Made by a program: the position numbers and the translations under genes. From contig NZ_JADYWU010000003.1 in NCBI RefSeq assembly GCF_015864665.1, positions 65,399 to 129,398 of the forward strand: 64,000 nucleotides of DNA, read 5' to 3'. This document shows positions 24 to 57,058 of this stretch, in pieces. Position 1 is the stretch's first letter. Each line of letters starts with the position of its first letter. This stretch comes from Salinibacterium sp. SWN167 (lineage in GTDB: Bacteria; Actinomycetota; Actinomycetes; Actinomycetales; Microbacteriaceae). Under the pieces are notes generated by a model that saw only the letters and a program-made list of their open reading frames with translations, was not told where the DNA came from and did not search any database.

Positions 24-29
24 TACGCT
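24..29 (+). promoter_or_regulatory. Candidate -10 box, leaderless start of DUF5302 gene
   Basis: TACGCT lies 7 bases before the ATG at 37 and no Shine-Dalgarno sequence is present. The same TAnnnT spacing recurs at 16 other starts in the window. The window begins too close upstream to judge a -35 box. Confidence 0.4.
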
Positions 30-36
30 GACAAGT

Positions 37-219
37 ATGGAACCCACAGAAGAGACACCCTCTGCGAGCGAAGAGAACAAGCGCAGGTTCCGCGAGGCGC
101 TTGACCGCAAGCAGGGTAAGCAAACATCACGTCCAGGCCATTTGGATGCCGAATCGGCTATCCACGGCACGCAGGACCGCGCAGACCACAAGCGCGACTT
201 CCGCCGCAAGACCGGGTAG
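37..219 (+). CDS. DUF5302 family small protein
   Basis: This 60-residue, highly charged protein has an acidic, Ser/Thr-rich N-terminus, a central KRRFREALDRK helix and a basic C-terminal tail ending in RRKTG. That layout matches the small actinobacterial DUF5302 family, whose function is not known to me. There is no membrane segment or signal peptide, so it should be cytoplasmic. It is followed by ppk2 on the same strand after about 110 bases, but that gene seems to have its own promoter. The family call rests on the N-terminal pattern and length only. Confidence 0.65.
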   Translation: MEPTEETPSASEENKRRFREALDRKQGKQTSRPGHLDAESAIHGTQDRADHKRDFRRKTG

Positions 220-306
220 TCACGGCTGAATGACGCGCAGTTCGACAGGCTTTTCCCGGTGAGATCAGGACTTCTGTCGCTGAGCTAAGTTTTTTCGAGC
301 TATTTT

Positions 307-323
307 TTCTACACGCTGTAGAA
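307..323. promoter_or_regulatory. 17-bp perfect palindrome over the ppk2 -10 box
   Basis: TTCTACA-CGC-TGTAGAA has perfect 7-bp arms with a 3-base centre. Its right arm overlaps the candidate -10 box (319-324), and it ends 7 bases before the ppk2 ATG. The position suits a repressor operator. The TACA/TGTA core recalls operators of the CopY/BlaI type, but the binding protein is unknown. Confidence 0.5.
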
Positions 324-324
324 T
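319..324 (+). promoter_or_regulatory. Candidate -10 box, leaderless start of ppk2
   Basis: TAGAAT is followed by exactly 6 bases (tgctga) and the ATG at 331. No Shine-Dalgarno sequence is present, so transcription probably starts at or next to the start codon. Confidence 0.55.
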
Positions 325-330
325 TGCTGA

Positions 331-54097: not shown

Positions 54098-55879
54098 TTA
54101 TTTCGAGAGTGCAGCGACGACATCGGCCACAGGGGTACTCGTGCGCTCGTTCGTCGCGCGATCCCAGACTTCGACCATTCCGTTGGCGGCATCGCGACCG
54201 ACAATCACAATCATGGGCACGCCGAGGAGCTCAGCATCGCCGAACTTCACGCCGGGCGAAACCTTCGGGCGATCATCGAAGAGCACGTCGAGACCCGACT
54301 GCTCAAGCGAGCTCACGAGGCCTTCGGCGGTCTCGTAGACAACGGCGTCCTTGCCCGCCGCAACGATGTGCACGTCGTAGGGGCTGATCTGCTTGGGCCA
54401 CAACAGGCCCTTGCCGTCGTTCGTGGTCTCAGCGATGGCCGCCATCAAACGGGTGACGCCGATTCCGTAGGACCCCATCGTGACGGTGACAAGCTTGCCG
54501 TTCTCATCGAGAACCTTCAGCCCAAGCACCTCAGCATACTTGCGGCCGAGCTGGAAGACGTGACCGATCTCCATGCCGCGAGCGGTTTCGATGGGACCGC
54601 TGCCATCGGGGGCAGGGTCGCCGGCGCGGACATCCGACACCTCAACGGTGCCGTCAGAGATGAAGTCACGACCGGCAACGAGACCTAGGACGTGCTTTTC
54701 GTGGAGGTTGGCGCCCGTGATCCACTGCGTGCCATCAACGACGCGGGGGTCGAGTACGAAGCGCACGCCCGTCGTCGACTTCTCGCCGATGACAGCGCCC
54801 TCGGGCGACCATGGACCGATGTAGCCCTTAACAAAGCCGGGGTTTCCCTCGAGCTTGGCCAGCTCGGCGAAGTCTTTCTCCGTGGCGGGCTCAACCTGAG
54901 CCGGCGCGAAGGCAACCTCGGCGCGCTTCATGTCAACATCGCGGTCGCCAGGCAAACCGACGACAACGAGTTCGCGCGTTCCGTCAATTGACGTCAGCGC
55001 GAGAACGATGTTCTTGAGCGTGTCTGCGGCGGTCCAGGGACGATCATCGCGGGGCTGCTCTTCGTTAGCGAGAGCAACAAGAGTGTCGATCGTGGGAGTG
55101 TTCGGCGAATCGAAGACCAGCGGAGCGGGCAGGCCATCAATCGGCAATGCCTCGGGAACGGTGGTGCGGTACGCCTCAACGTTGGCGGCGTAGCCACCAG
55201 CCGAGCGCACGAACGTGTCTTCGCCCACGGGAGTCGGGTGCAAGAACTCTTCGCTCTTCGAGCCACCCATCGCGCCGGCATCCGCGCTGACAATCACATA
55301 TTCGAGACCGAGGCGGTTGAAGATGCGCTCATAGGCGTCACGGTGCTGCTGGTACGAAACATCGAGGCCGGCATCCGTGTAGTCGAAGGAGTAGCTGTCT
55401 TTCATCGAGAACTCGCGACCACGCAGCAGACCGGCACGGGGGCGGGCTTCATCGCGGTACTTGTCCTGGATTTGGTACAGCGACAGCGGCAAGTCTTTGT
55501 AGCTCGAGTACAGGTCTTTCACGAGCAACGTGAAGACCTCTTCGTGCGTGGGCGCCAACAAATAATCGGCGTCTTTGCGGTCCTTGAGACGGAAGATGCC
55601 GTCACCGTACTCAGTCCAGCGGCCCGTGAGCTCGTAGGGTTCGCGCGGCAGCAGAGCCGGGAACAGCACCTCTTGGGCGCCAAACGACTCGAGTTCTTCA
55701 CGGATGACCGCTTCAATCTTGCGGCGAACCTTGAGCCCGAGCGGCAACCACGCAAAAACACCGGGAGCCTGCCGACGGATGTAGCCGGCGCGCACCAAAA
55801 GGCGGTGGCTGGCTACTTCAGCATCGACGGGATCTTCGCGAAGCGTGCGGACAAAGAGTTGAGAGAGACGTGTAGACAC
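54098..55879 (-). CDS. proS: Prolyl-tRNA synthetase
   Basis: This 593-residue class II enzyme charges tRNA-Pro. The bacterial-type layout is seen: motif 1 region ([19 protein letters not shown]), motif 2 ([20 protein letters not shown]), a YbaK-like editing insertion around residues 230-400, and motif 3 ([17 protein letters not shown]), then the anticodon-binding domain. The GTG start lies 6 bases after TACCAT. It is 18 bases downstream of ispG, so the two may also be cotranscribed. Confidence 0.97.
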
Positions 55880-55885
55880 GCCTCA

Positions 55886-55891
55886 ATGGTA
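55886..55891 (-). promoter_or_regulatory. Candidate -10 box, leaderless proS
   Basis: Minus-strand TACCAT is followed by exactly 6 bases and the GTG at 55879. It lies in the 18-base gap after ispG and would be an internal promoter. Confidence 0.35.
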
Positions 55892-55897
55892 GTGCGC

Positions 55898-57046
55898 CTA
55901 CGGGGTGAGAACTTGCGGACTTCCCGTGGCACCGGCCGGCATCTCTGCTGCGATGCGGTTGGCCTCTTCGATCAAGGTCGCCACGATGTCTGCTTCGGGA
56001 ACAGTCTTGATGACTTCACCCTTCACAAAGATCTGGCCCTTGCCATTACCGCTGGCAACACCGAGGTCAGCTTCGCGAGCTTCACCCGGTCCGTTGACGA
56101 CACAGCCCATGACAGCGACGCGCAGCGGAACCGTCATTCCTTCGAGGCCCTCGGTGACATCGTTGGCGAGCTTGTAGACATCGACCTGCGCGCGACCACA
56201 CGAGGGACACGAGACGATTTCAAGCTTGCGCTCACGCAGGTTGAGCGACTGCAGAATTTGCAGGCCAACCTTAATCTCTTGCACGGGAGGAGCCGACAGC
56301 GAGACACGAATCGTGTCTCCGATGCCCTCCGATAGCAGGATGCCGAACGCCGTTGCGCTCTTGATCGTGCCCTGAAACTCCGGCCCGGCCTCGGTCACAC
56401 CGAGGTGCAGCGGCCAGTCGCCGCGCTCTGCGAGCATGCGGTACGCCTTGACCATGACAATGGGGTCGTTGTGCTTGACCGAAATCTTGAAGTCGTGAAA
56501 GTCGTGCTCTTCGAAGAGGCTTGCCTCCCAGACAGCGCTCTCTACGAGCGCTTCTGCGGTGGCCTTGCCGTACTTCTGCAGCAGACTTGGCTCGAGCGAA
56601 CCGGCGTTGATACCAATGCGCAGGCTTGTGCCCGCGTCTTTGGCAGCCTTAGCGATCTCGCCAACCTTGTCGTCGAACTTGCGAATGTTGCCCGGGTTGA
56701 CGCGCACGGCGCCCACTCCGGCATCAATCGCGGAAAAAACATAACGCGGCTGGAAGTGGATGTCGGCAATAACCGGAATCTGGCTCTTTTTCGCGATGAT
56801 GTGCAGCACATCCGCGTCGTCTTGATGAGGCACAGCAACACGCACGATGTCACAACCGGATGCCGTGAGTTCGGCAATCTGCTGCAGCGTCGCGTCAATA
56901 TTGGTGGTCTGCGTCGTCGTCATGGACTGGACGCTCACTTGTGACTCGCTGCCGACTCCTACTGAACCGACCTTGATCTGCCGGGTCTTGCGACGGGGAG
57001 CGAGGACTTCAGGGACTTTCGGCATTCCGAGATTAATTGCTGGCAC
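55898..57046 (-). CDS. ispG: 4-hydroxy-3-methylbut-2-enyl diphosphate synthase
   Basis: This 382-residue iron-sulfur enzyme (GcpE) catalyses the next-to-last step of the MEP isoprenoid pathway. The TIM-barrel part has [19 protein letters not shown], and the cluster-binding Cys are in [14 protein letters not shown] [15 protein letters not shown] and in [15 protein letters not shown]. The GTG start lies 6 bases after TAGGAT and lacks a Shine-Dalgarno sequence, so the mRNA is probably leaderless. It precedes proS by 18 bases. The usual neighbours dxr and rip are outside or elsewhere. Confidence 0.96.
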
Positions 57047-57052
57047 TAACCC

Positions 57053-57058
57053 ATCCTA
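57053..57058 (-). promoter_or_regulatory. Candidate -10 box, leaderless ispG
   Basis: Minus-strand TAGGAT is followed by exactly 6 bases (gggtta) and the GTG at 57046. Confidence 0.5.

Follow-up and report, generated by a model that had tools for sequence, protein, structure and literature searches.

The 64,000-nucleotide stretch of Salinibacterium sp. SWN167 analysed here (the window) raised the question of whether a hexamer, TAnnnT, recurring just before its start codons marks genes that are transcribed without any 5' leader. The sequence-only reading had listed 17 ATG or GTG starts preceded by this box at a distance of six or seven bases. The upstream sequence of each start, up to 45 nt, was inspected and all 17 boxes were found in place, 12 at offset 6 and five at offset 7, the offset being the number of nucleotides between the end of TAnnnT and the start codon.

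On the plus strand, offset-6 boxes preceded ATG 331 of a PPK2 polyphosphate kinase (TAGAAT, 319..324), ATG 12846 of a protein with Colicin V and trypsin-like domains (TAGGCT, 12834..12839), ATG 19449 of a protein without Pfam family (TACGAT, 19437..19442), ATG 24284, whose product displayed a weak YtxH-like match below the cut-off (TAGGCT, 24272..24277), ATG 31304 of an M20 peptidase (TAGAGT, 31292..31297) and ATG 47094 of a ketopantoate reductase family member (TAGACT, 47082..47087). Offset 7 was encountered at ATG 37 of a 60-residue DUF5302 protein (TACGCT, 24..29) and at GTG 41591 of a ROK family protein (TAAGGT, 41578..41583). On the minus strand, offset-6 boxes were those of ATG 10616, zinc alcohol dehydrogenase family (TAGGCT, 10623..10628), GTG 14739, without Pfam family (TAGCGT, 14746..14751), ATG 34592, PfkB carbohydrate kinase (TATTTT, 34599..34604), ATG 36104, NAD-binding/DUF2867 (TAGTGT, 36111..36116), GTG 55879, the prolyl-tRNA synthetase-like proS (TACCAT, 55886..55891), and GTG 57046, GcpE/ispG (TAGGAT, 57053..57058). 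The three at offset 7 belonged to ATG 21802 of a PrsW protease (TAGTCT, 21810..21815), GTG 29304 of a DUF6804 protein (TATATT, 29312..29317) and ATG 43859 of an MFS transporter (TAGACT, 43867..43872). All of these boxes, except that of PPK2, were kept in the orthologs of the three same-genus genomes compared (G004, G009 and G011).

The list was accurate in what it included and incomplete in what it left out. GTG 22673 on the minus strand, the start of a protein without Pfam family, carried TACAGT (22680..22685) at offset 6, with a box at the same start in all three same-genus orthologs, and ATG 45600 on the minus strand, likewise without Pfam family, displayed a near-case, TAAAGT (45609..45614) at offset 8, the three relatives having a TAnnnT at offset 7. 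With these two, and after the conservation check, 19 of the 60 genes considered in the window (58 called genes, the gene at 37 and 6244-6831) were box genes. Boxes at 15398, 15290 and 37966 and at TTG 21631, all on the minus strand, were left out, not being kept across all relatives. Also uncounted was 22799 plus, encoding a protein with Ada/AlkA domains, which displayed CACAGT at offset 6, with a similar hexamer in all three relatives, together with an SD-like AAGG. It forms a divergent pair with 22673 minus, a box-like hexamer lying upstream of each start, and both genes may be leaderless. The DUF5302 gene (37-219, plus) was missed by the coding-score caller and conserved with its box in three relatives; it is an example of a small gene revealed by the leaderless signal.

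Enrichment was assessed on gene starts called by dicodon score, without regard to the upstream sequence. The sample, 464 kb with 456 genes, consisted of the window and 20 stretches, each 20 kb long, from the 3.0 Mb genome (three contigs), and the 442 starts analysed all had at least 60 nt upstream. TAnnnT was present at offset 6 in 48 of the 442 starts and at offset 7 in 13, the remaining offsets from 0 to 45 yielding between zero and eight each. Controls gave far fewer boxes for both offsets together: 26 out of 5093 at internal in-frame ATG or GTG codons and 15 out of 5000 out of frame. The sequence-only reading had put the chance expectation at roughly one in 65 starts, and the measured background of 3.1 per offset (offsets 16-45, 425 motif-blind ATG/GTG starts), equivalent to about one in 69 for two offsets, came close to it. 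Box genes made up 61 of the 442 starts, nine among the 57 of the window and 52 among the 385 others, so that the window is ordinary for its genome. The genome-wide count that had been suggested, run here as TAnnnT-gap-ATGA against the reversed pattern, agreed: 163 versus 43 at gap 6 and 99 versus 50 at gap 7, next to 51 versus 37 at gap 5 and 37 versus 38 at gap 9. The offset-6 ATGA pattern exceeded its control in all 40 family genomes (at least twofold in 34, less than twofold in six) and in all 60 class genomes (at least twofold in 41, binomial p < 0.001 in 37), the source genome being included in both sets.

Allowing plausible alternative starts raised the counts in the 464-kb sample to 59 of 456 genes at offset 6 and 25 of 456 at offset 7, over a background of about six per offset. 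The alternative in-frame starts of called genes displayed 26 boxes at gap 6 and 31 at gap 7, where the mean was 13.1, a count that is not decisive by itself since another gap reached 32. Hexamers with a base other than T at the first position and an otherwise matching A...T pattern likewise exceeded the background at offset 6 (32 against a mean of 16.6; offset 5 was up as well, with 25), so TAnnnT may undercount the signal.

With the start codon as +1, an offset-6 box occupies positions -12 to -7, where -10 elements normally lie, and RNA started from such an element would begin with the first base, A or G, of the ATG or GTG. The 48 offset-6 starts displayed a purine at -5 in 87 %, a pyrimidine at -1 in 75 %, and A (81 %) or G (19 %) as start base. 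A -35 element was sought between -45 and -17 of these 48 starts and no position exceeded 0.18 bit. None of the 17 TTG starts, a small number, carried a box at offset 6 or 7, which agrees with what a restriction of leaderless initiation to ATG and GTG would predict. The base at +4 was not box-specific, A being found at 27 of the 51 ATG starts with a box and at 75 of the 150 with an SD.

The boxes very probably serve the housekeeping sigma factor as -10 elements from which leaderless, SD-less mRNAs are started. At offset 6, RNA polymerase would begin transcription with the first base of the ATG or GTG, and at offset 7 within about one base of it, a spacing that allows room for a one-base leader. 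The resulting mRNA would have neither 5' leader nor Shine-Dalgarno site, and ribosomes would initiate on its 5'-terminal AUG or GUG. A second promoter upstream could provide some box genes with a leadered transcript too. The leaderless reading had been proposed before, and position, sequence, SD scarcity, purine start codons and conservation all argue for it; we infer from them where the transcripts actually start, which sigma factor is involved and that ribosomes enter at the 5' end.

The SD scarcity was marked. An SD tetramer occurred in eight of 61 box genes versus 204 of 381 others (motif-blind sample, Fisher 1.6e-9). Among the listed starts, almost all of which had been described as devoid of SD, the tetramer was lacking at 15 out of 17 and overlapped the box at the two others (41591 and 57046); the AAGG overlapping the box of 41591 counts against the leaderless reading at that gene. 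Internal operon genes had in turn been said to possess an SD, which held as a tendency and not as a rule: among the 136 operon-like genes (overlapping the same-strand upstream gene or at most 25 nt from it), 83 displayed an SD tetramer and 13 a box. Box genes amounted to 31 out of 136 where the upstream neighbour lay on the other strand and, for same-strand neighbours, to 10 out of 60 at 26-80 nt and five out of 95 beyond 80 nt, with two out of 15 at stretch edges. The low share beyond 80 nt also counts against the leaderless reading, those genes needing a promoter of their own as well.

Among the competing explanations, the one that survived best takes the box for part of an unrelated promoter, or for no promoter at all; transcripts of these genes would then start further upstream and have ordinary leaders. 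Bare TAnnnT matches are common and some box genes are operon-like (the 13 just mentioned), as would be expected from it. A promoter of leadered mRNAs would, however, not peak six to seven nt from the codon with the other offsets at background, and the SD that leadered mRNAs would use was lacking at 15 of the 17 starts; this explanation is very unlikely.

Leaderless genes are already published for Actinobacteria, and what is added here is conservation at the level of single genes. Zheng et al. 2011 (PMC3160421) described a TANNNT signal some 12 bp before the start, read as leaderless, in 86 of 89 actinobacterial genomes and around 20 % of genes. The present boxes resemble these TA-led genes, the first T lying about 12 nt before the codon at 17 out of 17 listed starts; the difference is that conservation was traced gene by gene here. 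For mycobacteria, leaderless transcripts were reported from RNA mapping and ribosome profiling by Cortes et al. 2013 (PMC3898074) and by Shell et al. 2015 (PMC4633059). Of the Mycobacterium tuberculosis genes assigned a primary start site, 26 % were leaderless according to Cortes et al., with a TANNNT -10 motif, no -35 consensus, a preferred purine at +1 and mostly C at -1, all of which we count among the likenesses, the difference being that those starts were mapped on RNA and ours are deduced from sequence. The mycobacterial leaderless starts described in PMC4633059 were confined to ATG or GTG. A -10 hexamer upstream of the codon excluded an SD there and vice versa, and no downstream element was apparent, two traits that the present boxes share. 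The same source suggests hundreds of small leaderless ORFs; unlike there, box-led short intergenic ORFs displayed no excess at offsets 6 and 7 in our small sample of 464 kb, with six and 13 for ORFs of at least 20 codons (other gaps: mean 8.3, sd 3.3) and 10 and seven for shorter ones (mean 7.5, sd 3.5). A transcript-start map for Microbacteriaceae was not found in the open-access literature searched.

The boxes of ispG and proS were followed into wider relatives, represented by the best 80 of at least 585 confirmed matches; N-terminal ispG peptides were among the search patterns, so this sample leans to similar N-termini. For ispG, a box preceded a candidate start in 44 out of 79 loci, three of them at a shifted start (L094 was dropped, its match beginning late). 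These divided into 42 of the 53 nearer loci (L021-L073) versus two of the 26 more remote (L074-L100), in which an SD or a different hexamer took the place of the box; its scarcity there counts against the leaderless reading. By eye, about 14 of the 35 misses displayed GATACT, GATAAT, GATGAT, AATACT or CATAAT ending six to seven nt before a start, and Arthrobacter, Pseudarthrobacter, Sinomonas and Tersicoccus carried an SD at the aligned codon. The ispG gene among these relatives (L021-L100) appeared to switch between -10 box and SD at an aligned start codon. For proS, the box was found in 31 out of 45 loci, two of them at a shifted start; 33 of the 80 loci had no proS match, L059 and L069 were dropped for late-beginning matches, and five of the 14 misses had a box at offset 8 (by eye).

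The motif might also be a translational signal on a leadered mRNA, such as an AU-rich ribosome entry site, and its location close to the codon, where an SD would sit, would suit that function. The spacing and the purine at -5, however, look like -10 features, as do, by eye, the GATACT, GATGAT and CATAAT hexamers at the same ispG place in other families, and in M. tuberculosis the same motif was mapped to a promoter element (PMC3898074). We regard such a signal as still less probable than transcription from further upstream.

Returning to -10 elements of leaderless genes, conservation was examined over syntenic stretches of the three same-genus genomes and of two more distant ones (G006 and G012). 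Each same-genus genome contained orthologs for 16 of the 17 starts, and TAnnnT ended six or seven nt before a start codon in all 48 pairs, at the aligned start in 47 and two codons downstream in one; in one pair it had moved from offset 6 to 7. Both exceptions belonged to 14739 minus. In G006 and G012 the box accompanied 15 of 24 matched starts, at candidate starts up to nine codons away, and this incomplete retention likewise counts against the leaderless reading; at least one G012 match without box (36104) spans only part of the protein. Of the 33 offset-6 pairs, 32 retained each of the box bases T, A and T, compared with 15 to 29 pairs for every other position between -30 and -1. Within the 15 offset-7 pairs, the same three bases, and -11 likewise, were kept in all 15, the others in two to 13. 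The 23 SD-type starts used for comparison (68 pairs) displayed a peak at -8 (63 out of 68) and no three-position pattern. Chance, even when aided by the choice among several possible start codons (a mean of 2.25 plausible starts per ORF, and unconserved boxes at alternative window starts such as those set aside above), is refuted by the persistence of the peak with motif-blind starts and by the conservation in 48 of 48 pairs, 17 out of 60 genes at 3.3 % each having a binomial probability of about 6e-12, and its likelihood is negligible.

The suggestion that the box fixes start codons was supported, as three relatives shared 16 of the 17 starts together with the box despite differing coding-score choices; those choices agreed with nine of the 17 and differed from seven, among them 331, 10616, 21802, 36104 and 57046, the gene at 37 being uncalled. 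In the 10616 minus gene, a GTG 14 codons inside, with SD-like sequence, was conserved as well. A TAnnnT ending six to seven nt before ATG or GTG would settle promoter, transcript start and start codon at once, and corrects starts placed elsewhere by coding score. The share of genes in this genome to which this applies would lie between about an eighth, judging from the motif-blind sample, and a third, judging from the conservation-checked window.

The remaining start, 331 (PPK2), had no match within the syntenic stretches of the compared genomes, and its homologs were searched separately. Two genomes of 97 % identity displayed the same start and box. Among eight more distant homologs (50-81 % identical, possibly including paralogs), four carried the box exactly six nt before a differently placed candidate start, one at offset 8 and three not at all; L167, one of those with box, contained two internal stops. 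That box and start codon travel together in four of these eight, and that the ispG box is held in most nearer loci with an SD instead in Arthrobacter-type genomes, hints that the leaderless state may be a selected property of particular genes, beyond mere tolerance. We advance this only tentatively; if correct, it would suggest that leaderless initiation serves regulation in such genes.

Upstream of ispG (57056-57089, minus), a second TAnnnT (57084-57089) was observed seven nt before the ATG of a six-codon ORF that ends within the ispG box and whose ATG is not kept in G004 or G011. The sequence TTCAGGAGTCGGC upstream of ispG was kept in G004, G009 and G011 and may act as a promoter or regulatory site for this gene.
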